A DNA stretch of 59,732 nt, taken from contig CAMYXV010000003.1 of assembly GCA_947303055.1 (NCBI GenBank), forward strand, positions 1 to 59,732, given 5' to 3'. Shown piece after piece: positions 4,261 through 45,056 of this stretch. The notes beneath the pieces were generated by a model, which worked only from the letters and a program-made list of their open reading frames with translations, was not told where the DNA came from and made no database searches. The position numbers and the translations under genes are program-made. Numbering within the stretch: position 1 is the stretch's first letter; each line of letters starts with the position of its first letter. This DNA is from an uncultured Bacteroidales bacterium. Lineage in GTDB: Bacteria > Bacteroidota > Bacteroidia > Bacteroidales > F082.

Positions 4261-4280
4261 AAAAAGTGGAGATGGAGGGA
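4261..4280. repeat. Left attachment site (attL) core, copy of the ssrA 3' end
   Basis: AAAAAGTGGAGATGGAGGGA is identical over 20 bp to 45037-45056, which is the 3' end of the tmRNA gene; identity stops at both edges (next base C here, G at ssrA). A tyrosine recombinase gene starts 330 bp inside. This is the expected scar of site-specific integration into the 3' end of a tRNA or tmRNA gene. Confidence 0.9.
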
Positions 4281-4610: not shown

Positions 4611-5960
4611 ATGATTAAGATAAAGTATAACACTCGCGTTTTCATTGATAAAAGGACAAGTCGTATAAAGATTCGTATTCGATGGAATAATCAGGAAACA
4701 ACGCTCTCAATGTCATGTAGGGCGGATGCGGCAAAATGGGATGAAACTAAGCAAAGACCATCTTCAGGGACTATGCATGTTTTTAGGGACCAGAACATGA
4801 GTGCTCGTGCGTTGACGGCAGAAATAGACCAAGCATTAGATGAAATCAATGAAGCGTTTACGCGATGCGAATTGGATTCGGTTATGCCCACAAAGGAAGC
4901 GTTGAAAGTCATGATTCGTGGTGAACAGCCGCAAAAAGAACCGGTAAAGTTGAAAAAGACTTTTGATGAACTTTTTGAAGAATTTATGAACGTAGTTGGC
5001 GATGAGCATAATTGGACAGAAAAGGTTCATTATAAATACGTTCAGGCATGGAACCAACTGCATAGCTGCTTTCCTCGCATCACTATCGAAACCTTGACCA
5101 AGGACAAAATGCGTGAACTTAGGAATTGGTACATTGAGAACCATTACCGAAATGTTACCATAAAAAAGCAATTTTCGTTTTTGAGAACATTTTTGAAGTG
5201 GCTCCAATCAGAAGGTTACGAGATTCGGCCGGGCGTTGTTGATTACAAGCCCAATTTGACCATCGTGCCGAAGACAGTAACTTTTTTGAAGTATGATGAG
5301 TTGATGAAGTTCTACGACCATAAGTTTGCTGGCGGACACTCTAATTGGGAAACTGCAAGGGATTTGTTTTGCTTCATGGCGTTCACGTCCCTCCGCTATT
5401 CAGATCTTGCTGGATTGAAAAGAGCCAATGTGCATGATGATCATCTCGAGATAGTTACTCAAAAGACGCATGATAAACTTTCAATACCACTTATCAGCTA
5501 CGCTAAGGATATTATTCATAAATATGAGGGCGTTGATTACAAAAAAGGAGTCATGTTCCCCGTGCCATCCAATCAGAAACTGAACTCTAATCTAAAGGAA
5601 GCTGCCAAAGAAGCAGGTCTGGAGCGTGAAGTGTCGTTATTGTACTACAAAGGTTCGAAACGCCACGAGGAAGTTAGAAAGTTTTATGAGATTATCGGCT
5701 GTCATGACGGAAGGAGAACTTTTGTATGCTGTTCCTTGTCATTCGGCATTCCCCCCACCGTTGTAATGAGTGTCACTGGGCATTCTACATACAAGGCGAT
5801 GCAACCTTACATTGAGGTCTGTGATGAAACTCAACAAAAGGAGTTGGCTAAATGGGAACAAAAAGGCAACTCGTTGAAAGATGATGTTGCTAAAAAATTG
5901 GCAAATGCAGATGAAGAGATGTTGAAAAAGGTAATAGCACTACTCGATTCTGGTCAATAA
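4611..5960 (+). CDS. Tyrosine recombinase / integrase
   Basis: This site-specific recombinase of 449 aa has the usual Bacteroidota layout: an N-terminal arm-binding domain (about 1-105), a SAM-like core-binding domain (about 115-215) and a C-terminal catalytic domain. Visible catalytic residues are Arg262 in TSLRYSDL, a probable Lys285, His365 and Arg368 in HDGRR, His391 in TGHSTYK, and the nucleophile Tyr400 in QPYIEV. It sits just inside attL and is the likely enzyme for integration at and excision from the ssrA 3' end. In the excised circle it would lie directly downstream of the DUF3853 gene across attP. An intrinsic terminator follows the stop codon. Confidence 0.95.
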   Translation: MIKIKYNTRVFIDKRTSRIKIRIRWNNQETTLSMSCRADAAKWDETKQRPSSGTMHVFRDQNMSARALTAEIDQALDEINEAFTRCELDSVMPTKEALKVMIRGEQPQKEPVKLKKTFDELFEEFMNVVGDEHNWTEKVHYKYVQAWNQLHSCFPRITIETLTKDKMRELRNWYIENHYRNVTIKKQFSFLRTFLKWLQSEGYEIRPGVVDYKPNLTIVPKTVTFLKYDELMKFYDHKFAGGHSNWETARDLFCFMAFTSLRYSDLAGLKRANVHDDHLEIVTQKTHDKLSIPLISYAKDIIHKYEGVDYKKGVMFPVPSNQKLNSNLKEAAKEAGLEREVSLLYYKGSKRHEEVRKFYEIIGCHDGRRTFVCCSLSFGIPPTVVMSVTGHSTYKAMQPYIEVCDETQQKELAKWEQKGNSLKDDVAKKLANADEEMLKKVIALLDSGQ

Positions 5961-17784: not shown

Positions 17785-17892
17785 TCGACACAATGGGGCT
17801 GTAGGGATAGTTAGGGATGTGCCCAAATAAAAAAAGACAAACAAATAGGAATGGAATTTCTCGGTTTTGAGGCTTTAACCCAAGAAAAGCAG

Positions 17893-17900
17893 TATTTTTG
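17893..17900 (+). promoter_or_regulatory. Promoter of the DUF488 genes
   Basis: TATTTTTG is a consensus -7 box; TTTG at 17865-17868 is a possible though slightly distant -33 element. It gives a leader of roughly 100 nt before the ATG at 18011. Confidence 0.55.
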
Positions 17901-18010
17901 TAGGCGAATGCAATTGGGAGAAACTTGAGCACCAGATTCAAAAAAACTAATACCTGAGATTACTTTTGAGTTGAAGTTGACATAAACCTGTAGAAAACGC
18001 ATTTTGAAAA

Positions 18011-18634
18011 ATGAACAAGATTTACACAATTGGCCATTCAAATGGCACTACAGAAGAGCTTTTGTCATTGTTGACATTAGCAAGGATTGATTGTGTGGTG
18101 GATGTTCGCAGCGTTCCTGCAAGTGCATATACGCCACAATTCAACAAAGATAACTTGAAACGCTACCTGTCAAGCAAAGGAATCTATTACTTGCATTTTG
18201 GAGAAGAATTTGGAGCTAGAAGATACGATGCTATAATTGATGGCCAGGTTAATTTTGAAAAGGCGGTAACGACACCGGCGTTTCTTAAAGGAGTAGAACG
18301 AGTAAAAAACGGTGTAGAACAAGGGCACAACATTGCTTTGATGTGTTCAGAAGCAGATCCATTGGCTTGCCATCGTTTTTCTATGGTATCTCGTTATTTT
18401 TATGACAACGGATATGATGTGTTTCATATATTGCATACTTCGGAAATCAAAACCCATAAAGAGTTAGAGGATGAAATGATAGAAGGTATGCTACGCAAAC
18501 GCAACAGCAAACTTCCAGAAGTGGATGCTTTGTTTGGCACCTATACCGCTGAAGACCAACGCAGAGACGCCTATCGATTGAAGAACAAAGCTATTGGATT
18601 TAAACCAGGTGAAGAAAACGAAAATGAATTTTGA
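18011..18634 (+). CDS. DUF488 family protein, copy 1
   Basis: The 207 aa match DUF488: an IYTIGHSN start, then VVDVRSVPAS, a central region with FGEEFGARR, and LMCSEADPLACHRF, whose Cys and His residues are the family's conserved putative active-site cluster. The biochemical function of DUF488 is not established. The stop is 1 bp before the ATG of a second, divergent DUF488 gene. A pair of DUF488 genes with a dual-OB protein downstream looks like a functional unit. Confidence 0.85.
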   Translation: MNKIYTIGHSNGTTEELLSLLTLARIDCVVDVRSVPASAYTPQFNKDNLKRYLSSKGIYYLHFGEEFGARRYDAIIDGQVNFEKAVTTPAFLKGVERVKNGVEQGHNIALMCSEADPLACHRFSMVSRYFYDNGYDVFHILHTSEIKTHKELEDEMIEGMLRKRNSKLPEVDALFGTYTAEDQRRDAYRLKNKAIGFKPGEENENEF

Positions 18635-18635
18635 T

Positions 18636-19082
18636 ATGATTACACTTTATACTATAGGGTTTACCAAGAAGAACGCAAGGAAATTCTTTGGACTATTAAA
18701 GAACGCTGGAGTCAAGAAACTTGTAGATATTCGCATCAATAATTCAAGTCAACTTGCTGGCTTTGCAAAAGGCACTGACTTGGAGTTTTTTATGAAAGAG
18801 ATTTGTAATGCTGAATATGTTCACATTACGGATCTGGCACCTACCAAAGAATTGCTTAAAGATTATCAAGACAAAGTCATTGATTGGAATGGCTATACGG
18901 TTGTGTTTAACAACCTGTTAAAGCAGCGACATATTGTCGAAAGATTCCCTGTTGAAGAATTCGACCAGTGTTGTTTTTTATGCACTGAAGACACGCCTGA
19001 AATGTGTCATCGCCGCTTGGTCGTAGAGTTTCTAAAAGATTCAAATGCCGATAAACAAATAAACATTATTCATTTATACTAG
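18636..19082 (+). CDS. DUF488 family protein, copy 2
   Basis: The protein (148 aa from the ATG at 18636; an in-frame ATG at 18624 would add four residues) has the family pattern TLYTIGFTKK, VDIRINNSSQ and the C-terminal FLCTEDTPEMCHRRLV. It is shorter than copy 1 and diverged from it, so the two are paralogues rather than a recent duplication. The tight spacing suggests co-translation. A membrane protein gene starts 5 bp after its stop. Confidence 0.85.
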   Translation: MITLYTIGFTKKNARKFFGLLKNAGVKKLVDIRINNSSQLAGFAKGTDLEFFMKEICNAEYVHITDLAPTKELLKDYQDKVIDWNGYTVVFNNLLKQRHIVERFPVEEFDQCCFLCTEDTPEMCHRRLVVEFLKDSNADKQINIIHLY

Positions 19083-19087
19083 TAGAT

Positions 19088-19456
19088 ATGAGAATAACAC
19101 TTGCTATTATATCGATAATATTATGCCTTTGGGCTGAATGTCATCACAATTCGATACGGCAATATGCCGAAATCAATATTCCTTTGTATATGAAGAGCAG
19201 GGGAATGATGTTGCTATTTGCCATCCTTTGTTATCTAATTGTAGCATTGGATTTTGTTGCCATGTGTGGCATTGCTTGGTATTGGTCTGTTCTAATCTCA
19301 ATTCTCTCGCACATAGTTTTGTTTTTTACGTTTACGCTTTTTTATGAAAAAATCACAGATGCCAATTATTCATTTGTTTCAGGAGGTTCGGGTTTGTTTA
19401 TTTGGATAAAACTGATTGTTGCGTTGATTTTTGCGATTGTCGCAATAGCAATATAG
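19088..19456 (+). CDS. Small integral membrane protein, 122 aa
   Basis: I do not recognise a family. Four hydrophobic segments are visible: about 3-17, 42-60, 65-88 and 105-122. The short charged loops give it the look of a small polytopic protein. It is directly downstream of the DUF488 pair on the same strand and ends 24 bp from the stop of a convergent gene. It may be the third gene of that operon. Confidence 0.6.
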   Translation: MRITLAIISIILCLWAECHHNSIRQYAEINIPLYMKSRGMMLLFAILCYLIVALDFVAMCGIAWYWSVLISILSHIVLFFTFTLFYEKITDANYSFVSGGSGLFIWIKLIVALIFAIVAIAI

Positions 19457-19480
19457 ACATCTTTATCTCCCTGATAGAAT

Positions 19481-19921
19481 TCACTTCTGACAGCGCATAT
19501 ATGAGTTGAACTCCAGGGCATCTTCTTCTGTAATAAACTCGTATCGACGATTTCCGATTCTTTTAAGGAGGAAGTAATGAATATATTTAAAAGCTCGGTG
19601 GTCTTTAGCTCCTTTGGACCATGGAAGAGGTTTTTCACAAAACCGGATGTTCAAATCAAGTTTTTCAGATTTGTCTTGGTTTAACATGCTCATTAAAGAC
19701 GATGAGCCTTTTATGGCTAAATATAAAGAGCGGGCTTTAGCATAAAGCTCTGCATTTGAGTATGCTGATGCCAAACTGAGCATAGGTCTGACATCGTTGG
19801 GATTCATTTTGCATTTTAATTCAAGGAACTTTGTCATTTTGAGATCCATTGAATGGTTGATTCGAAATCTGATATAGGAGATTAAGATTAGCACTCCTAG
19901 AATAATGAGAACAATTTTCAT
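19481..19921 (-). CDS. Single-pass membrane protein, 146 aa
   Basis: An N-terminal membrane segment (about 3-19, VLIILGVLILISYIRF) is followed by a soluble region with a TPR-like helix pair (PNDVRPMLSLASAYSNAELY and AKARSLYLAI). The C-terminal part is unlike anything I know. A consensus -7 box TATCTTTG on the minus strand at 19951-19958 lies 29 bp upstream of the ATG. It is encoded against its neighbours and is probably a single-gene transcript. Confidence 0.6.
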   Translation of the reverse strand: MKIVLIILGVLILISYIRFRINHSMDLKMTKFLELKCKMNPNDVRPMLSLASAYSNAELYAKARSLYLAIKGSSSLMSMLNQDKSEKLDLNIRFCEKPLPWSKGAKDHRAFKYIHYFLLKRIGNRRYEFITEEDALEFNSYMRCQK

Positions 19922-19950
19922 ATAATACCTTAATTAGTGGATTTTTGATG

Positions 19951-19958
19951 CAAAGATA
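19951..19958 (-). promoter_or_regulatory. Promoter of the 19481-19921 gene
   Basis: On the minus strand this reads TATCTTTG followed by CAT, a consensus Bacteroidota -7 box. Confidence 0.6.
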
Positions 19959-20061
19959 GTTTTTTTCACGCTTACTGATTACCTTTTTTATCCATCTGTC
20001 ATAAAGAGATGAAGGACGCAGAGAAAAACGTCCAATAAGTCGAATAAAAAAGTAGTGAATA

Positions 20062-20736
20062 ATGGATAAATATTTTGTTTGCATGGCAGTCTCCTACAAG
20101 TACGGAGGACGTTGCATAGGTGGAGTAGAACTCACCAAGGGCACCGACGACAGGTATTCAATTGTGAAAGAAAATGGAACACCCAAATGGATTCGCCCGG
20201 TAACAAGAGGCACTGAACATGGAGAGATTCCGACACATCTTTCTAATACTTGTAAGGTGATGGATATAGTAAAGATTTCAGGTGCAATAGCCTGTCCTGA
20301 TTGTGCGCAAAGTGAAAATTACTACTTTGATAGTATTGAGAAAGTGGGGCGATTGAACAATACACAAAGCACATTGGATATGCTCTGTGATAACCGCCAC
20401 AATTTGCTCTTTGGCAATAGGGGTAAGGCTGTGCATCCAGACAGTTATGTATCGATGGGGTATTCTTTGATGCTGATTAAAGCCAATGAAGTCAACTTCT
20501 TCATGGAAAACCGTTATGGCACCGATTACAAACGGCTTAGAGTTAACTTCACCTATAATGGTGTAGAATATGACCTGCCTGTTACGGATCCTGATTTTTC
20601 AGAAAAGGCAGATTACGATGTTGAAAGCCTTAATGGAAGCGATGCATACTATATGACTATATCACTTGGTGTTGAACACCAAGGATGGCACTCTAAGCTT
20701 GTGGCCAATGTAATTCCGATGAACTCTGCTCGCTAA
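20062..20736 (+). CDS. Dual OB-domain (DuOB-like) protein
   Basis: The 224 aa resemble the family annotated as dual OB domain-containing protein. The start YFVCMAVSYKYGGRCIGGVEL and the segment KWIRPVTRGTEHGEIPTHL are the recognisable parts; the second half is beta-rich (about 130-220). OB folds usually bind nucleic acids or sugars. The gene converges on the CHAT gene with a 4-bp 3' overlap. The same strand upstream carries two DUF488 genes, and I suspect these work together, but the intervening minus-strand gene weakens the operon argument. Confidence 0.6.
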   Translation: MDKYFVCMAVSYKYGGRCIGGVELTKGTDDRYSIVKENGTPKWIRPVTRGTEHGEIPTHLSNTCKVMDIVKISGAIACPDCAQSENYYFDSIEKVGRLNNTQSTLDMLCDNRHNLLFGNRGKAVHPDSYVSMGYSLMLIKANEVNFFMENRYGTDYKRLRVNFTYNGVEYDLPVTDPDFSEKADYDVESLNGSDAYYMTISLGVEHQGWHSKLVANVIPMNSAR

Positions 20737-23339
20737 TAAAGAAGTACAAAGGCACCCCAGTACTTTGGATTTGGGTATTTTTCACGAATGGCACTCTGCG
20801 CAGCGCGGAGTGCTTTTTCGTCAGAATAACCTTCTTTTATGTAGTAGTGATAGAACGTTTGCATAAGTTCTGATGTACAATAGTCGTCTACATTCCAAAG
20901 GCTCATGAGGATTTTTTCTACACCAGCAAGTTTAAAGGCTCTTTGCAAACCATATACGCCTTCCGTGTTAGAGCTGTGACCTAAACCTGTTTTACAAGCG
21001 GAAAGAACGGCAAGCGAACAATCGGAGAAATCTAAATACTGTATTTCTGAGGCTCTTAAGATGCCGTCGTCTATCATTGATTCTGTATTGAAAACAGTGT
21101 CAATTCTATTCCATGTAGAATCAGCGCCAGCAAAGAACAGGCCAGAGTTAAACATTGGGTTATATTCTTTTCTATGCGCATCGTCTTCATCAAAGAAACC
21201 ATGGGTAGAAATGTGTAAGATGTTGTCTTTTTTGCCTGACCTTGACCGGAAAGAAAGTTCTGTAGCTTCTGCTCCTGAATAGAAAGAAATAAGTTCTGGA
21301 AAGGCAATTAGACTTTTAATATAGTCGATTTCATCTTTTGAAAACACCAATTGATTAAGATGATTACCTCTGGTGATATCACGATATGAAGAGTCCACGG
21401 CAATCACAAGGGGTTCCTTGTTACCATAATCAATTGCGCCCCAGATTGCTAATTTATTAGGCTGGTTAGATGGGACGCTGCTCTGCATGGCAAGGAGATT
21501 GCTGGCGTTAGAAAGAAGATGGAAATCATAATGGTCAATCAGATGCTGTCTTGAACCTACACTGAGTGCTTGGAAAGAAATTGAATTGAAAACACCGTTT
21601 GTGGTGTAATATATATCTTTGATGTCAGTCAAGTGTTGTTCAATAGGTGTCCAAATTATTTGTGTTAGAGAGGGGTTGGTGTATGATTGCCAATAATCTT
21701 CTGTTTGGAATAATCTTAAAGCATCGTTTTCTGTTCCAAGATTAACCGATGTTACCTTACCATTTTTTGTGGCAATAAGTGCGAGCAGATTGCCTTCCCC
21801 TGTTTGAATAAAGTCTATAATTGCGTCATCGGTGTCTAAACACTTGCTTATTGAGCCAATGTTTGCTTCTGCAATCTCTCGATCATAGCGGTATTCAGGG
21901 CAAGAGACAGCAAGTTGTTTGTCTAGATTGTCAATGTCTTTGCGGAGGATTCTTATCCTGATGGCGTTGCCAACTTCGTCAAGATTTTCCCTGTAGGACA
22001 GCTCTTTCCTGTATTCTTGCAATTGTTCGAACTTCTCTACTAAAGATTCATCACCACTATTTCTGATCTTATTGGCCAGTTCTTGACTGGATCTAAGAAG
22101 TAATCCTTTTATAAAGATGGAGTTGTCGAAGCATAATATGGCCAGTTTATCCGAAGGATGGTTATACAATAGATTATTGGCATAGTCGAAAGGACCATTA
22201 AGAAGACTCACGAAGTGTTCTCTTTGGGATTCGCTCATCGTGTAAATGTTCTTTGACAGCAACAATCTGAGGCCGGTACAACATTCGATAACTTGTGACT
22301 CCAGTTCCTCCCAGTTTTGTTCGTTTTCCAAGAACTTAAAACCTCTTATCTGGTTCTCAATGTATAAGGGATCATCTTTTGTAGTGTTTTGATCCAAGTA
22401 TGTTGTATATTTTGAATAAAACCATTTACTATTCTTGATATCGTGGACTCTATAGCAAATATCAGACAGCGTGCCATATTCATATTTGTTATCATTCTGG
22501 GGGTCGGTGTCCAAAGCATATTCTATTGCTTCGCTTACAGACTGGTATGCTGGCAATACTCCATATTGTTCAATTGCCCAATTATTAAGTAGATTCAAAT
22601 ACTTTAAAACCAAAGGTGGTTCGGCAAGTCCATTGTTGTATAATTGATCAAGAAACTTGGCGGTTCCCATTATTGCTTCTTTTGGTGAAGATAAATACAA
22701 CATCTTTAGGTCGTAAAGCCTCATTGGATTGTTGAGGAATAATGTATCATCTTCATCGAGTTTGTTCTGCATATCTATTATTTGCTCTATAACTTCGGGC
22801 GTTAAATGTTGTTTCATCAATGCATAATATCGTTTTTGCCCTTCGATGTCGCCCATCTCTTCATATAGATTAAAGTATTCTTTGGCTATGTTAAATCGTA
22901 AAAAATCAATATACCAAGGATACTCCTCCAACTTTTTGATTTGTCTTTGTGACAAGTATTTCAGGCTGTCCATATCTCGCAGTATGGCCTCGGCTTTTTC
23001 ATATTCACCTATTCTTTTATAGCAATCAAAGACTTCGGTCATATTAATATAAATATCACCTTCGGAGGTGAAAATCTCTTCCTTTTGCTCGTAAAAATCT
23101 ACTGCTGCTTTATATTTATGAGCATTCTTTAATTCGACAAAAGTTCTGGTAGATAGATGGTAATTAAAAAGGTCAACTTTTTTTGGAAACAGCCATCTGG
23201 CAATAAGCAAAATAATACAAGCTAAAATAACGAGACATATTATGGCAAAAGCCATATATAGGAAACATCCCATGGCACCATGGATGTTTTCCAAGATTTG
23301 TAGCTGTTTTTTTTTCTTGTCTTGATCGTTCGTTGCCAT
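20733..23339 (-). CDS. Membrane-anchored TPR-CHAT protease
   Basis: The 868 aa start with a cytoplasmic charged tail and one membrane span (about 26-47). A long helical region of TPR-like repeats (about 60-430) follows, then a CHAT caspase-fold domain at the C-terminus (about 560-868). The catalytic dyad is intact: His713 in HISTHGFF and Cys782 in LSACKTGLG; the usual GVYGLQRAF and SLWNVDD motifs follow. CHAT proteases are the effector of several conflict systems, including Craspase. The gene ends the six-gene minus-strand operon headed by an ECF sigma factor. No promoter of its own is obvious, and a small plus-strand gene separates it from the gene before. Confidence 0.9.
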   Translation of the reverse strand: MATNDQDKKKKQLQILENIHGAMGCFLYMAFAIICLVILACIILLIARWLFPKKVDLFNYHLSTRTFVELKNAHKYKAAVDFYEQKEEIFTSEGDIYINMTEVFDCYKRIGEYEKAEAILRDMDSLKYLSQRQIKKLEEYPWYIDFLRFNIAKEYFNLYEEMGDIEGQKRYYALMKQHLTPEVIEQIIDMQNKLDEDDTLFLNNPMRLYDLKMLYLSSPKEAIMGTAKFLDQLYNNGLAEPPLVLKYLNLLNNWAIEQYGVLPAYQSVSEAIEYALDTDPQNDNKYEYGTLSDICYRVHDIKNSKWFYSKYTTYLDQNTTKDDPLYIENQIRGFKFLENEQNWEELESQVIECCTGLRLLLSKNIYTMSESQREHFVSLLNGPFDYANNLLYNHPSDKLAILCFDNSIFIKGLLLRSSQELANKIRNSGDESLVEKFEQLQEYRKELSYRENLDEVGNAIRIRILRKDIDNLDKQLAVSCPEYRYDREIAEANIGSISKCLDTDDAIIDFIQTGEGNLLALIATKNGKVTSVNLGTENDALRLFQTEDYWQSYTNPSLTQIIWTPIEQHLTDIKDIYYTTNGVFNSISFQALSVGSRQHLIDHYDFHLLSNASNLLAMQSSVPSNQPNKLAIWGAIDYGNKEPLVIAVDSSYRDITRGNHLNQLVFSKDEIDYIKSLIAFPELISFYSGAEATELSFRSRSGKKDNILHISTHGFFDEDDAHRKEYNPMFNSGLFFAGADSTWNRIDTVFNTESMIDDGILRASEIQYLDFSDCSLAVLSACKTGLGHSSNTEGVYGLQRAFKLAGVEKILMSLWNVDDYCTSELMQTFYHYYIKEGYSDEKALRAAQSAIREKYPNPKYWGAFVLLY

Positions 23340-23347
23340 AGTTTTGA

Positions 23348-23355
23348 TATTTTTG
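23348..23355 (+). promoter_or_regulatory. -7 box abutting a start codon
   Basis: TATTTTTG ends only 4 bp before the ATG at 23360. Transcription would begin at or inside that codon, implying a leaderless message or use of the in-frame ATG at 23375. Confidence 0.45.
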
Positions 23356-23359
23356 CGCT

Positions 23360-23584
23360 ATGAAAAATGCATGGATGCCAATTATTAAGGAGGTTTTGCT
23401 GCTTGTTTTTGCAGTTTTAATCTTTCTTGTCCTCTACGATTGCCTTGTTGAAAAGAAGAAATTCAAAGAGGCTTTTGTGGAGCGTTTTTTCTTGTTTTTT
23501 TTTCAGCGAGGTTTGGGATGGGTAGTGTATCTCATTGCGATTGTTGCGGTGTTTTTCTTGGTTTATTCAGTCTTTTTTGAGTAA
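23360..23584 (+). CDS. Small two-span membrane protein, antisense within the CHAT operon
   Basis: The frame encodes 74 aa with two clear membrane spans (about 9-27 and 52-72) and a basic loop (EKKKFKEAFVERF). It is divergent from the CHAT gene (20 bp apart) and its 3' end overlaps the 3' end of the polytopic membrane gene by 18 bp. An in-frame ATG at 23375 is an alternative start. It may be a small toxin or modulator of the system; this is a guess. Confidence 0.5.
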   Translation: MKNAWMPIIKEVLLLVFAVLIFLVLYDCLVEKKKFKEAFVERFFLFFFQRGLGWVVYLIAIVAVFFLVYSVFFE

Positions 23585-24616
23585 TCTGTCTTTAATGTTT
23601 AGAGAGGATCTGTCAAGAAATTCGATGGCATCTTCTATTGTCGTTCTCAGACTGTCTTTTTCTATAATAGATAACCTTATTCCTTTTTCAAGTTTTTTTC
23701 CAAGTTTTGAGGCGTAGGTCCAATAGTATGTTGTTGAATCTGCTTGGTAAAAGTATTGGTCAACGTATATGACATTTTCATTGGTTTCAATTTCTTTGAA
23801 GTCAATATCGTCTTTATAAAACCTTCTTAGCTCGTCGGGTTGGTTTTCTGAGATTGAGTAGATATAGTTGTATCGCAATGGCTCGTATTCTTCAGTGGCG
23901 CATACTATAAAAATTGATGATGGCCAAACAGTATCATGAAAATAAAAAGCATCTTGCACAGGGTTGAGTACGGCGCATGAATCCAAAATCCATGTTTCAT
24001 TTGGTTTGAAAATTGCACGGCCATCGGTTAATTCTCCTTCGTGAAGTTCAATTTTAGCAGCATCTATTTTTTTGCTGTTTTGCCTTTTTGATATATCCGC
24101 AATCATCATTTGGATTGAAAGAAGGGCGAGTAGTACATATAAGGCAATGCCTATTAAGCCAGGAAGACCTAAGCTTCTTTCTGACTTGGGATATGCCTGG
24201 TTTATTTCTTTTGAACTACAGAGATATATGAAGAATATTAGAGGAAATAATACTATGAGCAAAGATAGCCATGAAGATGTAAGGTTGATAAATGATATAC
24301 GAGATAGGCCTGTAATTAGAATTGCAATGAAATGAAAAGGCAGGCAGAGCTTAAGACAAGGTATAGCGTGTTTAGAAACTTTTAGTGCTAGTATGATAGA
24401 CCAAAAGCCAAATACAAACCAAAGGAAATAGTCTAAATAATACAAAGAAATGAAAACGGGAGAATCGGAGAGCTTTATCTCTTGAACGAGCCAATTAGAG
24501 AATTGCGAGATTGCACCAATGGAAAGTCTAAGCAGAAAGCAAAAGAAAATGCACAGCATAACGGTATATGTTGTGCTGGGCTTTTGTGTTTGCTGATTTG
24601 TGCCGTTGGTATTCAT
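23567..24616 (-). CDS. Polytopic membrane protein with large soluble C-terminal domain
   Basis: The 349 aa have about five membrane spans in the first 180 residues (near 18-38, 53-75, 82-104, 112-133 and 153-172). A soluble region of about 165 residues rich in Tyr, Asp and Glu follows. I do not recognise a family. The ATG overlaps the stop of the caspase gene (4 bp), so the two products are made together. It could be the membrane target or the sensor of the adjacent proteases. Confidence 0.7.
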   Translation of the reverse strand: MNTNGTNQQTQKPSTTYTVMLCIFFCFLLRLSIGAISQFSNWLVQEIKLSDSPVFISLYYLDYFLWFVFGFWSIILALKVSKHAIPCLKLCLPFHFIAILITGLSRISFINLTSSWLSLLIVLFPLIFFIYLCSSKEINQAYPKSERSLGLPGLIGIALYVLLALLSIQMMIADISKRQNSKKIDAAKIELHEGELTDGRAIFKPNETWILDSCAVLNPVQDAFYFHDTVWPSSIFIVCATEEYEPLRYNYIYSISENQPDELRRFYKDDIDFKEIETNENVIYVDQYFYQADSTTYYWTYASKLGKKLEKGIRLSIIEKDSLRTTIEDAIEFLDRSSLNIKDRLLKKD

Positions 24617-25644
24617 TTCTTTCTAATTCTCCATATTATTATGACAAGCAATGCTAGTGCTGCGATTAGTATATAAATGAAATTGCGATTTTGCCCATCA
24701 TAGTTTTCTACGTTTGTGTTTGTGGCTTTTATCGGTTCTGGTTTGAGGTCGGGTTTTGTGTAGTTGAATGATGCACGAATGCCTGGAGTTTGATAAGGCA
24801 CCAAGGAGTCCATGAAAACGACAACATTATTTAGGAACTCGGTGATGTTGGCAAAGGAGGCATTGTCTAAGGCACTTGCAATAGAATAAGACAATGAGCC
24901 ATAACCTATGCCATCCGGAAGAACTATTTCGGCATTTTGAGAATGAGCTTGACATGCACTCAAATAAAGCACCGGGGAATTGTTGCTTATGGTAATCATG
25001 CTAGTATCTCTGACATACCTTTTCTTAATTATAGCATCAGTAATTATGCAAGAGTCGCCAAAAATATCAGATGTTCCGCGACAAATTGTATCAAGTATGA
25101 CAGCGTTTCCACCAATTTTATTCATAGAATCACTATGGCAAGCATCAAGTGTTACAATGACCATACCGCTTGCTCCTACTTTATCTCGTATTCGGTTAAT
25201 ATACTTGGAAAGTTCATCATCGCGTATATGGTTTCTACCATTATAACTTGGTGACCATTTCTTGAAGGCATCGTAAGGGACAAGGGCTTCGTCCAGCATG
25301 TCTGGTTCATCTTCAGATTCAAGGATGGGTATCATTTGTTGTCCATGACAGGAAAAATGGATTAAAATCGTATCGCCAGGAGACGATTCTTTCTCTATTT
25401 TTTCAAAAAGTTGTATGATTCCAAGGTGCGTGGCGGATTCGTTTTCTAAAATGAAGATTTGCCAAGAAGGGGATAACTTGCTCCTGATGAGTTCAATATC
25501 ATTGTGGGCGTTAATTGTGCGCCATCCACTTCCAGGTTGGTATTCTGATATGCCTATTAATGCGGCCTTGTTTTGAGCCGCTAAAGGAATTGCCAGAGCC
25601 AGGTAGCATATTACTATAAACAGTATTCTTCTCATTTTTCGCAA
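24613..25644 (-). CDS. Caspase-family protease, secreted and membrane-tethered
   Basis: The 343-aa protein has a signal peptide (about 1-23, ending LAAQ) and a caspase/metacaspase p20 domain (about 25-250) with catalytic His100 in HFSCHGQQ and Cys169 in VTLDACHS. The acidic substrate-pocket region EDEPDMLDEALVPYD lies between them. A C-terminal membrane anchor (about 321-338) is followed by RIRKK. This predicts a periplasmic protease domain held on the inner membrane. Metacaspases normally cut after Arg or Lys. The start overlaps the upstream gene by 13 bp and the stop overlaps the next gene, so it is embedded in the operon. Confidence 0.9.
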   Translation of the reverse strand: MRKMRRILFIVICYLALAIPLAAQNKAALIGISEYQPGSGWRTINAHNDIELIRSKLSPSWQIFILENESATHLGIIQLFEKIEKESSPGDTILIHFSCHGQQMIPILESEDEPDMLDEALVPYDAFKKWSPSYNGRNHIRDDELSKYINRIRDKVGASGMVIVTLDACHSDSMNKIGGNAVILDTICRGTSDIFGDSCIITDAIIKKRYVRDTSMITISNNSPVLYLSACQAHSQNAEIVLPDGIGYGSLSYSIASALDNASFANITEFLNNVVVFMDSLVPYQTPGIRASFNYTKPDLKPEPIKATNTNVENYDGQNRNFIYILIAALALLVIIIWRIRKK

Positions 25645-26558
25645 AACATTTGCATTAGCAATTTGTTTTTCAAGGCAATTTCATTGTATTCTTCTTTTGA
25701 AATACCTATGGCAGAGAGGTAATCGTATAACTTTTGCGTTTTTTTAGGGTCTTGCTCACCTGTGATTGGATTGATTATAACTGAAGAAAAGAAAGGCTCA
25801 ATAACAGGGATGGAGTCGACATTGATGCCTGTTAGAAGGTTGATTAGGTGTTGTTCTCCATAGGATTGAAGTTTTGACTTGCAATTGTCCCATGAAACAT
25901 TGAAGAATCTAATTTGTTGAAGCACGGCTGGATTACTAGTAAAAATGGATTCGGGAGAACCGTCAGCAGTCGCAATCAAATAACCAATGGCAATCAAGGC
26001 CTCTTTTTGGTCTTTTGAAAAACCATCGTAAGAATCTTCGATCATATCGATGGGATCGTCTAAGTCGAATGGATGTTCAATCTTAATATGGTCAACTACT
26101 TCGTCAGGATGTAAAAGCCTTACGACTTTTATTTTGTGCTCGTATATTTTTTTGCGTGCGATTTCTACAAAAGCACTAGCTATATCCTTTTGGGCAAATA
26201 CCGAAGCATTTCTCATGTTTTCGGTATTGTGTTGAAATCGCAACTCTTGTTGGAAATACTTAAATCCTAGTTCCATTGTCATTTTGCCTGTGCTGTACAT
26301 AAAATGAACAATCATATTTTGGCTATTTGGATCAGTGGACATCATATTAACACATCTTGGGTCATTGGGCAGAGGAGTTATTTCACCCTTCCCTTCAAAT
26401 AGACCCGAACTTATAGTGCTGAAGAAAAACGGGAACAACTCTTCCAGCGTTTTTTCTGCAAGTTCGCGCTTGTCCTTAATCATTGCACCCAAAAATGGAT
26501 AAATGAGCAGGAATAGAGCCACGAGGATTATTAAAACTATAAGAAACGCTTTTGACAT
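25632..26558 (-). CDS. Single-pass membrane protein, unknown family
   Basis: An N-terminal membrane segment (about 4-25, FLIVLIILVALFLLIYPFLG) is followed by about 280 soluble residues without a family I recognise. An acidic stretch (DLDDPIDMIEDSYDGFSKDQ, about 164-183) could bind cations or a partner. It overlaps the caspase gene by 13 bp and starts 2 bp after the anti-sigma-like gene. It is probably a structural or sensory part of the same membrane complex. Confidence 0.65.
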   Translation of the reverse strand: MSKAFLIVLIILVALFLLIYPFLGAMIKDKRELAEKTLEELFPFFFSTISSGLFEGKGEITPLPNDPRCVNMMSTDPNSQNMIVHFMYSTGKMTMELGFKYFQQELRFQHNTENMRNASVFAQKDIASAFVEIARKKIYEHKIKVVRLLHPDEVVDHIKIEHPFDLDDPIDMIEDSYDGFSKDQKEALIAIGYLIATADGSPESIFTSNPAVLQQIRFFNVSWDNCKSKLQSYGEQHLINLLTGINVDSIPVIEPFFSSVIINPITGEQDPKKTQKLYDYLSAIGISKEEYNEIALKNKLLMQMFCEK

Positions 26559-26560
26559 GA

Positions 26561-27187
26561 TTACCAGAGTAGTTGGTTGAGAACTTGTTTAGACCTTTCG
26601 TCACCTAATTCTTTCAAAATGGCTTTTGCTTTCTTCTTCTTGCCCATCTTCAAATAAATCAGTGCTTTTTTGTATTTCAAATCATTCATGGATTGATTAT
26701 ATGCTTCGATTGCTTCTTGGTCGTCGACTAATTCATACTCCATCTCTAACTCTTTATCAATTACATCAAGGGCTTTCGTGTATTCGCCTTCTAATAACAG
26801 GTTGTCAATATCATTGTCGCCTTTTTGTATAACGGCTAATTCTTGTCGTAATACATTAGAGCCAACACGCATCGAAACAATGAAATCCGAAGCGAAGACG
26901 ACACAAAACATCGCTGCGGCAGCAAAGGAGATTGTTTTGAGAGAAATGGCTATAGGTTTATGAGTGGCCAATTCTTTTTCTTTTGCGTCCATGATTTCTT
27001 GCATTTGTTCAAAATTGATGCCTCTCATCAAGTTGAACTGACGCTGATAGTATTCCTTTAATTCTGGATTTGACTTGACATCTTCTATGAACGCCAAAGA
27101 TTCCTCTTCGGTCATTTCCTTACGGAGGAAACGGTCAACTCTTTCAGCTATTTCTTTATTGAATGTGGTATTTTCAAATTCTTCCAT
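26561..27187 (-). CDS. Anti-sigma-factor-like membrane protein
   Basis: The 208 aa begin with a helical region typical of Bacteroidota anti-sigma and related membrane proteins (RFLRKEMTEEESLAFIEDVK, then NPELKEYY). One membrane span follows (about 84-104), then a C-terminal helical TPR-like part (LLLEGEYTKALDVIDKELE and ALIYLKMGKKKKAKAILKEL). It lies 17 bp downstream of the ECF sigma gene, the usual sigma/anti-sigma arrangement. The natural model is that it holds the sigma factor at the membrane until a signal releases it. No zinc-binding anti-sigma motif is visible. Confidence 0.7.
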   Translation of the reverse strand: MEEFENTTFNKEIAERVDRFLRKEMTEEESLAFIEDVKSNPELKEYYQRQFNLMRGINFEQMQEIMDAKEKELATHKPIAISLKTISFAAAAMFCVVFASDFIVSMRVGSNVLRQELAVIQKGDNDIDNLLLEGEYTKALDVIDKELEMEYELVDDQEAIEAYNQSMNDLKYKKALIYLKMGKKKKAKAILKELGDERSKQVLNQLLW

Positions 27188-27204
27188 GATAGTTATCCTC
27201 CATA

Positions 27205-27903
27205 TTATTGAGCCGATAAGGCTTTTTCGTAGGCGTACTTGAATTTTTTATGACAACGAGATTTCTGATTCTTAACAGAGTCGGCGCTGCTATAATTCGG
27301 CATTATTTTAGCAATTTCTTCGAGTGTCTTCTTTTTCCCATCTTCACTGAAATAGAAATAGGTGAAAATCTCTTTGCATGAAGTTCCCATTGCATCAACA
27401 ATCTCACGTACCAAAGTGAATTTGGCTTCATCTTCAAAATATGGGTCTTCAGTGATTTCAAGAAGCGGGTTAGCGTTAGTATCATCATCGGCTGGAGTAT
27501 AATCATCTATGCTTAGCACATTAACAAAGGGGTCAAAACTGACATACTTGCGTTCTCCACGTTGCATTTCCAAAAAAGAAAACTTGCCGATACCAATTAG
27601 ATATGTATCAAGTTTTGCAGACAAAACATTTATCTTACCTTCTCTGCTTCTTATATAGATGTTTTTGTCTTGAACAAACATTTTGCCTGTAATGATTTGA
27701 TTGTATAGCTTTAAGCAGGAATTTTGGTATAAGTCGGCAATTTGTTCGTTCTTTTCTTCTCCAGAAAAAGACCCTTGAAAATAACCAAAGAATTTGGGCC
27801 TATACTTTTCATATAAAGTAGAGAAAGCCCGATTGTCACCTTCGTAAATCCTTTTGATGAGACGCGGCTCGTTGTTGATTGACAATATTTTAGGTAGTTC
27901 CAC
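27205..27903 (-). CDS. ECF-type RNA polymerase sigma factor
   Basis: The frame can be read from a TTG at 27954, but that TTG is the -33 element of the promoter, so I place the start at the GTG at 27903 (232 aa). Region 2 is at about 15-60 (LIKRIYEGDNRAFSTLYEKY and DLYQNSCLKLY). A longer linker than usual follows. Region 4 with its helix-turn-helix is at the C-terminus (KTLEEIAKIMPNYSSADSV). It heads the six-gene minus-strand operon and likely controls it, with the next gene as its anti-sigma partner. Confidence 0.8.
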   Translation of the reverse strand: MELPKILSINNEPRLIKRIYEGDNRAFSTLYEKYRPKFFGYFQGSFSGEEKNEQIADLYQNSCLKLYNQIITGKMFVQDKNIYIRSREGKINVLSAKLDTYLIGIGKFSFLEMQRGERKYVSFDPFVNVLSIDDYTPADDDTNANPLLEITEDPYFEDEAKFTLVREIVDAMGTSCKEIFTYFYFSEDGKKKTLEEIAKIMPNYSSADSVKNQKSRCHKKFKYAYEKALSAQ

Positions 27904-27930
27904 CTTTTTCTTGTTTTCCAGATTAGACTG

Positions 27931-27954
27931 CAAATATATGAATTTTAGTGTCAA
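27931..27954 (-). promoter_or_regulatory. Promoter of the sigma-caspase-CHAT operon
   Basis: On the minus strand TTGAC (27954-27950) and TATATTTG (27938-27931) match the Bacteroidota housekeeping -33/-7 pattern with normal spacing. The pattern suggests the primary sigma factor gives basal expression. Confidence 0.7.
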
Positions 27955-28010
27955 CGAGTGATTACCTTTTGTGAAGAGCTGACATAAAGGTCAAATAAAA
28001 GTTTGATATT

Positions 28011-28835
28011 ATGGAACAGACAGTCAAAAGCACACTCAAAAGATGGGAATCATCCCTAATCAATTTCGGTAAGGTTGATCAATGGAATATCAGCAACGAT
28101 TTTGCCACATTTGAAACATTCATTTCGTCAGGTAAGTCTAATGCAGCCAGAAATGCTATTCGCGATTGCCGCGACTACACAATTTCTGGTATTTACGATG
28201 CTTCTTTGTTGCTCAACAAAGTGCAAAGCGCATATAGGATTATAAATCATGCTGAAGCTGGTAGGATGAAGAAAGAGGCGAAAAAGAACAGTTCTAATGG
28301 TCAAGCAAAACGGTTTGCCAGTACAACGAAAAAACTGTACAATGAAAAGTTGCGCTTTATGGATGGTGAAAGCCTTCGCGATGTTGATATCACCATGGAG
28401 GATGGTGCTACATCTCGCAAGGTTCGACGCATTGTTGAAAAGAGAATGTGCCAGGCCTATTATCGGCAGCATAAGAATGACGAAGATCATGGAGGTCGAG
28501 ATAGACATTACATGAAAAGAGCCACATCGTTTCAGCTGCACAATCTTGGTCAAGTGGAATGTGCTACGGGTCTTTGTAGAGCAAATGGCACACATTGGAA
28601 AAAGATGTATGATCCAATTTCCGGTGGAATGGTTTTCAAAAAGAAGATGGAGTATTCATCTTATGAGGAAGCTACTGAAGCCGCAATGGAATTTATGCGC
28701 CGGCATCCTGAAGACAAGAAACCTGTAAGCGCATACCAGTGTGCTCATTGTGGGAAATGGCACATTGGACACACTACGCCGGCTGAGAAAAAAAGTTTCC
28801 CAGAGATGGTTACTTTTTTAGGCTGGGCATCATAA
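28011..28835 (+). CDS. Hypothetical protein with C-terminal zinc-finger-like motif, 274 aa
   Basis: I do not recognise a family. The protein is basic and helical, without signal peptide or membrane span. The C-terminus carries YQCAHCGKWHIGH (about 241-253), a Cys-x2-Cys ... His-x3-His arrangement that could bind zinc and is seen in some phage and plasmid proteins. It is divergent from the sigma operon with about 55 bp between the two transcription units, so it could be a regulator or an unrelated neighbour. Confidence 0.6.
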   Translation: MEQTVKSTLKRWESSLINFGKVDQWNISNDFATFETFISSGKSNAARNAIRDCRDYTISGIYDASLLLNKVQSAYRIINHAEAGRMKKEAKKNSSNGQAKRFASTTKKLYNEKLRFMDGESLRDVDITMEDGATSRKVRRIVEKRMCQAYYRQHKNDEDHGGRDRHYMKRATSFQLHNLGQVECATGLCRANGTHWKKMYDPISGGMVFKKKMEYSSYEEATEAAMEFMRRHPEDKKPVSAYQCAHCGKWHIGHTTPAEKKSFPEMVTFLGWAS

Positions 28836-28882
28836 ACAATAAATGAAAAACAAACTCTGAATAAATAAAACCATTTGAAATT

Positions 28883-29038
28883 ATGAAAAACCGAGGAGAA
28901 TACTACGAAGATGACTATGAGGACTATAGCAATTTTGACCAGCCTGATTTGGGGGAAGAAACATGGTGGGCATTGACAGATGGGATGTATGGTGATTATC
29001 CGGGTCCAGGCGTTGATTATGATTTTCTTGGGTTCTGA
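28883..29038 (+). CDS. Small acidic protein, 51 aa
   Basis: This short frame from the ATG at 28883 encodes a strikingly acidic, Tyr- and Gly-rich peptide (EYYEDDYEDYSNF, then a C-terminal YGDYPGPGVDYDFLGF). Its composition is far from random and it sits in a same-strand series with short gaps, so I take it as real. The function is unknown; such proteins can mimic DNA or act as inhibitors, but nothing here proves it. Confidence 0.5.
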   Translation: MKNRGEYYEDDYEDYSNFDQPDLGEETWWALTDGMYGDYPGPGVDYDFLGF

Positions 29039-29064
29039 TAAAACATAAACTAAAAGACAAAAAA

Positions 29065-29688
29065 ATGGAAAACGAAAAAGACAACACTTTTAATTATATC
29101 ACGGGTGTACTCGCCATTTGCGCTGTAATAGGCTGGTCGTTGTATTATCTGTTTCAGTGTTCTCCTATTATTGCGGGAGTAGCAGGGGTTATAATCGTTG
29201 GGATTGTAGTCTTTGCCTTTATTTGGTTAAGAATGATTAAAAGCGTTGACCATCTAGAAGAAGCCATCTGTAAGCAACTTGACAGGCAGGGCTTTCGCCA
29301 TGAAAAGGAAGATGGCACTTTATATGTCATAAAGAATGATAATCGTTTTCGAGTCCAACTTGCAGATGGTATTAATAAAAGAATAAAACACCTTTACATC
29401 ATTTATGACTTCGGAGACGACGATTTTGAAAAGGTCACAAGTGATGGCTGGAACAGAGCTGCCAATTCTATCAATCTCAACAATACTAGCACTACTTTTG
29501 TTGCGCTGTCGGATCATTTTTGCTGTTGTTATCAGAGTGCTATTGAATCTTCTCGTGATTTTATGTTAGAATTTGACAGAGCGTATAAGGCCATCGGAGG
29601 TGCTTTAGAGGATTATAGCAAGATTTATCCTTATTTGGAGCGGGATTATCCCAACAATACAGAGAGTAAAACTATTGGATTTAAATAA
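29065..29688 (+). CDS. Two-span membrane protein with YbjN-like domain
   Basis: Two N-terminal membrane segments (about 12-30 and 33-55) precede a soluble domain of about 145 residues. The domain's pattern (LEEAICKQLDRQGFRHEKEDG, then a beta-rich part) recalls the YbjN/type III chaperone-like fold. That assignment is weak. The gene belongs to the plus-strand series 28.0-31.3 kb, with 9 bp to the next gene. Confidence 0.5.
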   Translation: MENEKDNTFNYITGVLAICAVIGWSLYYLFQCSPIIAGVAGVIIVGIVVFAFIWLRMIKSVDHLEEAICKQLDRQGFRHEKEDGTLYVIKNDNRFRVQLADGINKRIKHLYIIYDFGDDDFEKVTSDGWNRAANSINLNNTSTTFVALSDHFCCCYQSAIESSRDFMLEFDRAYKAIGGALEDYSKIYPYLERDYPNNTESKTIGFK

Positions 29689-29697
29689 GCAAAATGG

Positions 29698-31332
29698 ATG
29701 ATTATGAAGACTTGGATTATTATCGCCATTTATTGGTCGGTGGCTGTTGGTGCGACATATTGCATTCGCGCTTACAATGATAAGAAGAACCGTCTCAAGA
29801 TAGCGGCTTTTAAGGCATTTGGGATAACAACAACATCTTCTCTGTGGAAACGAATTGGTACGCATGCCTCCATTGTTTTTCTGGTGCCTCTTTTGATGCC
29901 TGTCATCATCATCGTTTTCCTAATTGACAAATCCTTAAAACACAATAAAATGAAAAAGAAAATGAAAACAGAAACAGAGCCGCAGGAAGTGAAGAAGTAC
30001 GTGGCCAAGATGGAAGAGAATCTTCCCAATGACATTTTTACCCAAGCGTCAAAGGTAATGATGGACGCTTTGATCTTTGGCACATTTGACAGCTTTGAGA
30101 GCTTGCTGGATGACAAGGTTGAGACAGTATTGTATCGGCTGAAGACCATAAAAGGGAAGACCGATGTGCTGGCTTATTGGTGGGACTGGCGGAAAAGGTT
30201 TGTTACGACCAAAAAAGTGACTAACTTTAATGTCGTTGTGAGCCGCTATTATTCCCATGCCTGCTTAAGGATAGAGGAGGTTCAACTGATCATGTTCCAA
30301 ATCGAGGATGGGAAGATTGTCACAATCGTTTCGTTGCCCGAGCGTTTGACATCGCCCTACTCTGATGACAATATGCTGAACTATCCCCTGGAGTATGCTC
30401 GGATAAAGCGATACCTGGCTCCATTGGGAGAATCCGTTGACAAAGACGGAAATCCAATGCCGTTAACGGACCGAATGCCTTGCTTGGATTGTGGCATGGA
30501 GTCGCAAGATTTGAAATGGTATAGTATCAGGATTCCGGATTGGTCTTATAATAGATGGCAAATCGGTCAGGTGTCGATTTGTCCCCAATGTGGCCGGATT
30601 GTCGAATACAAGGAGGTGAAAACCGAGGAATCCGATGACGAGAAGGATGTGCCCATTGAAGGCTCAAAGTATTCTGACAAGGGCAATGCTTTTTCTGAGT
30701 ATGCGGAAAAGATGTATTCGGAGGATTGTGTTAGTTTTCTTGAGAACGCTATGGATGATGAGGTTGTCCCGGAATTGAGGGAAGTCGTAAGAAAAGCATT
30801 CGCGGATAACCTAATCCCCCAACCATCGGAAATAAAAGTGGAAGAGGGCTATAGGTTTGAAGTAACCATGCCTTCAAATGAAGGGAGCGGTGACATCACG
30901 CATATTAGGATTGTGGACGAAGAAGGGAATGCCACAGAAACCCTTACGGATCATTTAGTGGTCAATGCTACCGAAATGGGAGTGTGGCAATTATATCTGC
31001 TCGAAAACTATCATACTGTTTTGCCAACGGTTTGGCATGGGGGATACAATAGATGCGAATACATATTCAAGGAATCGGATGTTGACGACATTATGCCGTT
31101 GAAATATCATGATTTAACAGCACTAATCAAACAAAAGAAATTGTTGCCTTTTGTAGAAGTTAGTAAGGAAGATGAGGATAGCTACGTAGCCTTTGTCGAT
31201 TGTACCTATTGGAATAATTGGAAGGGGCTGGCCAGGGAACGTGTCACATACAAGATAAAATCTGGAAGCGTTGTGTCTAAAACGAGAAACGAAGAAATTC
31301 TTTTCCAGTTCCATTGTGGGGTGTGGTACTAA
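29698..31332 (+). CDS. Membrane-anchored zinc-ribbon protein, 544 aa
   Basis: Two membrane spans lie at about 5-22 and 56-77 (an in-frame ATG at 29704 is an alternative start). A soluble region of about 110 residues follows, possibly NTF2-like (VLAYWWDWRKRFVTTKKVTNF). A two-part zinc ribbon comes next, with Cys-x2-Cys in MPCLDCGM (about 265) and again in SICPQCGR (about 302). The C-terminal 200 residues are of unknown fold. No enzyme motif is seen. It may act with the YbjN-like membrane protein encoded just upstream. Confidence 0.55.
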   Translation: MIMKTWIIIAIYWSVAVGATYCIRAYNDKKNRLKIAAFKAFGITTTSSLWKRIGTHASIVFLVPLLMPVIIIVFLIDKSLKHNKMKKKMKTETEPQEVKKYVAKMEENLPNDIFTQASKVMMDALIFGTFDSFESLLDDKVETVLYRLKTIKGKTDVLAYWWDWRKRFVTTKKVTNFNVVVSRYYSHACLRIEEVQLIMFQIEDGKIVTIVSLPERLTSPYSDDNMLNYPLEYARIKRYLAPLGESVDKDGNPMPLTDRMPCLDCGMESQDLKWYSIRIPDWSYNRWQIGQVSICPQCGRIVEYKEVKTEESDDEKDVPIEGSKYSDKGNAFSEYAEKMYSEDCVSFLENAMDDEVVPELREVVRKAFADNLIPQPSEIKVEEGYRFEVTMPSNEGSGDITHIRIVDEEGNATETLTDHLVVNATEMGVWQLYLLENYHTVLPTVWHGGYNRCEYIFKESDVDDIMPLKYHDLTALIKQKKLLPFVEVSKEDEDSYVAFVDCTYWNNWKGLARERVTYKIKSGSVVSKTRNEEILFQFHCGVWY

Positions 31333-31398
31333 TTCGTAAAAACGCTGTTGTTGAAAAAAAGTTATCAACACCTCTTGCGGGACGCAGGTATTCAGCAC

Positions 31399-31406
31399 TA
31401 ACTTTG
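31399..31406 (+). promoter_or_regulatory. Promoter of the ADP-ribosylglycohydrolase operon
   Basis: TAACTTTG is a consensus -7 box with a TTG at 31375-31377 as the -33 element, 21 bp upstream. It lies 54 bp before the ATG at 31461. Confidence 0.65.
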
Positions 31407-31460
31407 CATAGTCGAAAGACAAACGAGCAGTAAACTTATTATCAATACATTACATAAAAT

Positions 31461-45036: not shown

Positions 45037-45056
45037 AAAAAGTGGAGATGGAGGGA
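45037..45056. repeat. Right attachment site (attR) core within ssrA
   Basis: This 20-bp sequence, identical to 4261-4280, comprises the last 14 nt of the tmRNA gene plus six following bases. The ssrA 3' end is kept intact, as in most integrations of this type. Confidence 0.9.

Follow-up and report, generated by a model that had tools for sequence, protein, structure and literature searches.

The window analysed here, a 59,732-nucleotide stretch of contig CAMYXV010000003.1 from an uncultured Bacteroidales bacterium, contains an operon in which genes for an extracytoplasmic function (ECF) sigma factor and its anti-sigma factor are combined with genes for two caspase-fold proteases, a C14 caspase and a TPR-CHAT protease. 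The original prediction, made from the sequence alone, described six minus-strand open reading frames (ORFs) at this locus. All six were found where it had put them, which confirms that observation, and with the spacing it had given: gaps of 17 bp (sigma/anti-sigma) and 2 bp (anti-sigma/SP308), and overlaps of 13 bp (SP308/caspase) and 4 bp (caspase/PMP). A seventh conserved gene, encoding the small protein SM on the plus strand, had been overlooked. The sigma gene had been recognised as ORF 27205-27954; its start, however, is more likely GTG 27903 than TTG 27954. The features of the operon are the following:

27205..27903, minus strand: ECF sigma factor (likely start GTG 27903, 232 aa; TIGR02937, E 8.1e-6)
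26561..27187, minus strand: anti-sigma factor (single-pass; NF047528, E 8e-4)
25632..26558, minus strand: SP308 (single-pass, without family, optional component)
24613..25644, minus strand: C14 caspase (membrane-tethered, predicted periplasmic; PF00656, E 5.3e-9)
23567..24616, minus strand: PMP (five transmembrane segments, C-terminal PsbP/Mog1/DcrB-type domain, candidate sensor)
23360..23584, plus strand: SM (74 aa, two transmembrane segments, between PMP and CHAT)
20733..23339, minus strand: TPR-CHAT protease (N-terminal transmembrane anchor; PF12770, E 1.4e-50)
27962..27970, minus strand: AAAAGGTAA element (upstream of the sigma gene, candidate regulatory site)

The operon is genuine, and conservation of its gene set across loci makes a chance grouping very unlikely. 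Genomes of the GTDB collection were scanned with a caspase alignment; 360 stretches matched, of which 329 were relatives, and the best 80 loci were kept (the best-scoring by the caspase query, not a random sample). The profiles were partly built from genomes that recur among these loci (L152 = G355, L155 = G211, L203 = G030), which are not independent finds. An ORF filter dropped seven loci from our first pass (L157, L160, L165, L176, L180, L204 and L220); the counts of co-occurrence, subtypes, anchors and charges given below include all 80 loci, while those of signal peptides and motifs are from the first pass.

A short caspase (<420 aa) was present in 71 of the 80 loci, accompanied by a sigma gene in 61, an anti-sigma gene in 61, a CHAT gene in 59 and all three in 54. 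In the 46 Bacteroidota loci where a short caspase has 6 kb or more of sequence to either side, the corresponding figures were 42, 43, 40 and 38 (the eight exceptions being L154, L204, L212, L215, L221, L223, L225 and L231), so that the unit whose co-occurrence the original prediction proposed to check is indeed kept as a set. All three genes were found in two of nine long-caspase loci. Sigma matches in the short-caspase loci numbered 61 in 744 kb lying within 6 kb of the caspase, as against 1 in the 413 kb beyond; the profiles favour operon-type sigma factors, because they were trained on operon members, and the far-flank count serves as a control. Where a sigma gene accompanies the short caspase (61 loci), the two lie within 100 bp of each other in 47.

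Local searches showed the set without SP308 in a sister genome (L063), all six genes in another family (L062), and a shorter caspase-sigma-anti-sigma-CHAT core in other genomes. Genome-wide searches covered samples of 295 order, 173 family, 99 genus and 395 phylum genomes; a caspase match at E <= 0.001 occurred in 38 of the 295 order genomes. The anti-sigma profile returned mostly general anti-sigma-like proteins (in 120 of the 295 order genomes), which were excluded from the counts. We also considered whether the system is phage cargo as such and rejected this, as the phage collection contained no match to the CHAT protein of the window. Plasmid caspases were only distantly related (all 59 records <60% identity).

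The window represents a rarer, membrane-tethered form of this widespread gene set. Eight loci with PMP (the window, L152-L157 and L159) make up this subtype; the caspase has a C-terminal transmembrane segment with a Lys/Arg tail in all eight, as against none of 64 short caspases without PMP, and the CHAT protein carries an N-terminal transmembrane segment in all eight. Anchored CHAT proteins were also found in three Parabacteroides loci (L163, L166 and L177), where PMP was not detected, and related sets without PMP occur in Bacteroides oleiciplenus YIT 12058, B. stercorirosoris DSM 26884 and Parabacteroides distasonis NM39_I3. In many loci outside the tethered subtype both proteases look secreted, without an anchor.

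SP308 matched no Pfam family at cut-off and has homologues in four of the seven other tethered loci (L153, L155, L156 and L159), one of them short (155 aa). The SM gene occupies the 227-bp gap between PMP and CHAT, extending a few bases into PMP, and is present in all eight tethered loci, on the opposite strand in seven and on the same strand in L157. A TAnnTTTG box, the Bacteroidetes housekeeping promoter motif, was seen by eye shortly before the SM ATG in all seven opposite-strand loci. Small ORFs resembling SM near the anchored CHAT genes of L163, L166 and L177 gave weak scores (E 0.27, 2.8 and 0.32), and equal or better scores came from unrelated places (L069, E 0.0053; L229, E 0.077).

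The window sigma factor matched the sigma70-ECF model TIGR02937 over residues 43-239 at a score under the model's curated cut-off, and 61 of 62 aligned sigma factors (window included) matched it at E <= 1e-3; this supersedes a Pfam search of an early set, in which Sigma70_r2 was found in 2 of 10. The model of the type III-E CRISPR sigma factor (NF041236, CAS_III-E_sigma) was matched by 21 of the 62 at E <= 1e-3 and is not specific here, because generic ECF models match more members. The sigma factor probably starts at GTG 27903, given that the promoter-like box TATATTTG sits between TTG 27954 and GTG 27903, leaving TTG 27954 upstream of the box, and that in L153 and L155 a box of this kind precedes the likely start by a similar distance. 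As a separate observation, most of the aligned sigma factors are only about 20-30% identical to that of the window, and two cysteines in the C-terminal half (C193 and C234 of the window protein) are invariant in all 62; a redox or metal-binding role for them is possible.

Several features mark the product of the next gene as a probable anti-sigma factor. It adjoins its sigma factor, it shows similarity to anti-sigma models (that of the window protein to NF047528 being weak, while 26 of 62 aligned anti-sigma factors matched NF052375 at E <= 0.01), and it appears to be a single-pass protein with its N terminus inside. The predicted layout comprises an N-terminal cytoplasmic domain, a transmembrane segment at about residues 86-104 and a TPR-like C-terminal domain placed in the periplasm. 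Exactly one transmembrane segment was predicted in 55 of the 62 proteins, and in 51 of these 55 Lys/Arg residues are in excess on its N-terminal side, as expected of an N-in protein. Such a topology would be compatible with regulated proteolysis of the RseA type.

The caspase domain (Peptidase_C14, PF00656) begins at residue 25, directly after a predicted signal peptide, and is followed by the C-terminal anchor. The catalytic dyad named in the original prediction, His100/Cys169, is invariant in all 12 aligned caspases, as are D49, S98 and D167; both the His and Cys motifs were present in 71 of 76 first-pass caspases. The three further residues are presumably those that form the acidic S1 pocket, and their invariance predicts cleavage after Arg or Lys. 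A caspase profile run against the PDB gave 11 matches, all of them to GSU0716 or metacaspases, which thus appear to be its closest relatives among solved structures. In PADLOC-DB 2023 a generic "caspase" model (E 5.2e-9) was the sole match when the six originally predicted proteins, SM not included, were scanned; the other five had none at E <= 0.1.

The dyad proposed for the second protease, His713/Cys782, is likewise invariant in all 28 aligned CHAT proteins, and 50 of 56 first-pass sequences, fragments included, contained both motifs by a strict regular expression. Whole-protein sequence profiles of CHAT returned TPR proteins from the PDB, e.g. kinesin light chains (3 matches in one search; TPR proteins among the 60 listed of 233 matches in a second), and the NCBIfam models found in CHAT proteins were mostly TPR-containing, with none for that of the window. 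Structures were predicted for CHAT and PMP. The AF2 model of CHAT (pLDDT 81.5) has as its best PDB match Csx29, the protease of the type III-E CRISPR system, whose TPR-CHAT fold it appears to share, and it also matches DdvA (PDB 8rot, 8rw5).

CHAT genes are multiplied in several loci. Two stand in tandem with one caspase at L110:9912-17592, and L191:8391-17988 holds two caspases and two CHAT genes with sigma and anti-sigma genes. Arrays of secreted-looking CHAT proteins in L070 and L071 (same genus) are interleaved with transmembrane proteins that, by eye, begin like TIR domains.

The original prediction had placed the two proteases on opposite faces of the inner membrane. We rejected this arrangement on the evidence of the signal peptides, the C-terminal anchors and the charge pattern of the anti-sigma factor, from which both proteases are predicted on the same face. 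By a crude rule (which does not work for fragments, for genes with late start codons or for some of the anchored CHAT proteins) a signal peptide was present in 69 of 76 caspases, 37 of 53 CHAT proteins and none of 56 sigma factors. Considering the Sec-like signal peptides of CHAT, the C-terminal anchor and Lys/Arg tail of the caspase and the N-in anti-sigma factor, the caspase, CHAT and the C-terminal domain of the anti-sigma factor should share the periplasmic face. For the window CHAT itself the orientation is taken from its homologues, because Lys/Arg residues flank its transmembrane segment nearly evenly (four before, five after). The earlier interpretation is supported in part: the conserved unit, the candidate-defence neighbourhood (described below) and the failure to match a named system stand, the opposite faces do not.

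The operon probably lies inside a 40.8-kb integrative island (4261-45056) at the tmRNA gene of this gut Bacteroidales genome. Its candidate ends are:

4261..4280, strand not assigned: left 20-bp direct repeat (candidate att site, an exact copy of the tmRNA 3' end sequence)
45037..45056, strand not assigned: right 20-bp direct repeat (at the 3' end of the tmRNA gene, 45042-45440, minus strand)

A tyrosine integrase gene (4611-5960) lies about 330 bp from the left repeat, and the island also carries genes for a Sak annealing protein, a PD-(D/E)XK nuclease, an ADP-ribosylglycohydrolase and an AbiEii-type protein. Candidate defence families of PADLOC are represented by PDC-M45A directly beside the CHAT gene, PDC-M45B/C next to it, and PDC-M71A/B. 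The flanking gene 28011-28835 was found in 2 of 99 same-genus genomes, that of the window included. A block of about 13.5 kb (17874-31454, with gaps) is common to the window and the sister genome G355, in which no integrase or Sak match was found in the 76 kb of the contig compared. When this block was compared with L063 and L234 in 300-base bins, the sigma gene showed 94-100% DNA identity and the right flank 82-100%, as against about 57-79% for the caspase, PMP and CHAT genes, with SP308 absent from the sister genome. Such an allelic mosaic looks like diversifying or horizontally exchanged cargo. The island with its candidate defence genes and the patchy distribution make an immune role for the operon plausible.

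We propose that the operon encodes a free-standing, CRISPR-independent proteolytic sigma switch that faces the cell envelope, the likeliest reading, to which we give an even chance. The anti-sigma factor would span the inner membrane and hold the ECF sigma factor in the cytoplasm, with its TPR-like domain in the periplasm beside the tethered metacaspase-like protease and the tethered TPR-CHAT protease. An envelope signal, sensed perhaps by the PsbP-like domain of PMP, by the TPR arrays or through lost inhibition by SM, would activate the caspase, CHAT or both, and one of these would cut the periplasmic domain of the anti-sigma factor. General intramembrane and cytoplasmic proteolysis would then complete its removal, and the freed sigma factor would increase the expression both of the system itself and of a response regulon. 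The proposal builds on the gene set with its conservation, protein families and catalytic residues, and on a predicted topology. Which protease cuts what, the order of the proteases, the nature of signal and output and any part in immunity we infer, the periplasmic cut in particular from the analogy with Csx29 and from the compartment that the proteases and the anti-sigma factor would share.

Our literature searches, whose coverage of subscription journals was mostly lacking, gave no description of this gene set and, as in the original prediction, no named system to match it. The nearest parallel is the type III-E CASP/Craspase system, in which a TPR-CHAT protease is likewise encoded with an ECF sigma factor and its inhibitor; Csx29 cleaves the inhibitor Csx30, freeing CASP-sigma, and Csx30 fragments gave no defence against three tested phages (PMC10028731). 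The window differs from this system in that a second caspase-fold protease belongs to the set, a transmembrane anti-sigma factor serves as the inhibitor, and CHAT, anchored here and secreted-looking in many relatives, is predicted to be periplasmic. Neither the window nor any of the 80 loci (up to 21 kb each) showed a CRISPR-like repeat array. Cas7-11 (gRAMP) measures about 1,600 aa, and the window has no room for it, since its largest ORF encodes 868 aa (this rests on ORF length; Cas7-11 was not searched by profile, nor elsewhere in the genome).

Sigma release by proteolysis takes other forms as well. In the cytoplasmic CalpL system it proceeds through CalpT and CalpS. Cutting of a membrane anti-sigma factor on its outer side frees the ECF sigma factor in MucA/AlgW, and the site-1 proteases of this system and of RseA/DegS are PDZ serine proteases, whereas the candidates in the window are two caspase-fold cysteine proteases. 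An outer-side cut, as proposed here, also frees the ECF sigma factor in RseA/DegS (PMC10028731). CalpL-CalpT-CalpS, built on a type III CRISPR Lon protease, is similar in that infection leads, by way of a protease, to a transcriptional response, and differs in its protease fold and in being activated by cA4 (PMC12751052, PMC11417357). DdvA is described as the anti-sigma factor of DdvS in Myxococcus (PMC4374960); in comparison with DdvA/DdvS, the anti-sigma factor and CHAT of the window are separate proteins, and the caspase, PMP and SM are added. CHAT-domain proteins are also conserved near the sigma factors of group ECF54 (PMC8999054), but a conserved anti-sigma factor distinguishes the set described here.

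For the caspase, the closest precedent is EACC1/EACC2, a proposed autopeptidase-activated system with a caspase gene beside those of an ECF sigma factor and a TPR protein, EACC2 being described as a caspase with an ECF sigma factor and TPR (Kaur et al., PMC8195603). These systems differ from ours in that their caspase is fused to a constant EACC domain and their TPR protein is a DUF1822 protein (PMC8195603). In the window no such fusion is seen, as the caspase domain directly follows the predicted signal peptide; DUF1822 was not found in the operon proteins by Pfam, and the EACC1-associated caspase model gave E 0.0054, with 16.2 of 140 bits, far under its cut-off.

A wider reading goes beyond the switch itself: the operon may belong to a family of immune or stress switches of Bacteroidota, so far undescribed, that face the envelope and in which metacaspase and TPR-CHAT act in sequence on a transmembrane anti-sigma factor in the periplasm. 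The type III-E protease-sigma arm would then be a relative, cytoplasmic and RNA-guided, derived from one ancestral module of TPR-CHAT, anti-sigma and ECF sigma factor. We offer this tentatively, as doubtful rather than probable.

Alternatively, the sigma/anti-sigma pair might only control expression, while the caspase and CHAT would be effectors that degrade envelope proteins or kill the infected cell, as in the cell-death reading of the original prediction. The protease genes follow the sigma gene on its own strand, among candidate defence neighbours and in an island, and caspases act as effectors in predicted conflict systems (PMC8195603). We nevertheless consider this explanation unlikely, since Csx29, a close fold relative, acts on a sigma inhibitor and DdvA is titled an anti-sigma factor; a signalling role thus fits the closest structural relatives of the proteases better than cell death does. 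The secreted appearance of many relatives of both proteases suits anti-sigma signalling as well as killing, and the housekeeping-type box before the sigma gene suggests that protease synthesis may precede any signal.

Since related sets occur in commensals, a role in envelope stress is about as likely as one in killing. The operon could accordingly be an ordinary Bacteroidota regulator of envelope stress or nutrient response without an immune role, its island location being incidental, although this too is improbable in view of the patchy distribution of the caspase, the rarity of flanking gene 28011-28835 and the cargo-like mosaic between sister species. It is very improbable that the sigma/anti-sigma pair and the proteases have no joint function and owe their proximity to chance or to a common island, the tethered proteases of L154 without a nearby sigma gene and the pair encoded on the other strand in L156 and L159 being outweighed by the crowding of sigma genes around caspases in loci that were found by the caspase alone (61 near, one far; 47 of them within 100 bp).

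If the sigma switch proposed above is correct, control of sigma release by TPR-CHAT proteases would be a widespread bacterial signalling design and not a CRISPR oddity, with a periplasmic form in gut Bacteroidota. The anti-sigma factor would become a concrete candidate substrate for bacterial caspases, and an origin of the Csx29/Csx30/CASP-sigma arm would be suggested. The switch is directly testable, because the named strains listed above carry related sets without PMP.

Some data on possible regulatory sites were also obtained. The motif AAAGGTAA is found between -550 and +60 relative to the short-caspase start in 17 of 70 cases, where the background rate predicts about 1.8. Of a stronger form, in which a T-run follows, there are 21 sites in 1.38 Mb (shuffle mean 0.9, maximum 2): 10 upstream of a caspase gene, two of a separately placed CHAT gene, five of other ORFs and four before no listed ORF. 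The motif may be the sigma factor's own promoter, bearing in mind that the pattern was picked from these same upstream sequences, that the control lies within the 80 loci and that a -10-like part could not be defined. A default sigma-70 promoter scan gave 28 sites, against 26.4 by shuffling. Close to the operon, the gene of a small protein with one transmembrane segment (19481-19921, minus strand) is accompanied by a AAAAGGTAATCA element at 19986 and a TATCTTTG box, an arrangement resembling the element before the sigma gene, and this gene is possibly a member of the regulon.

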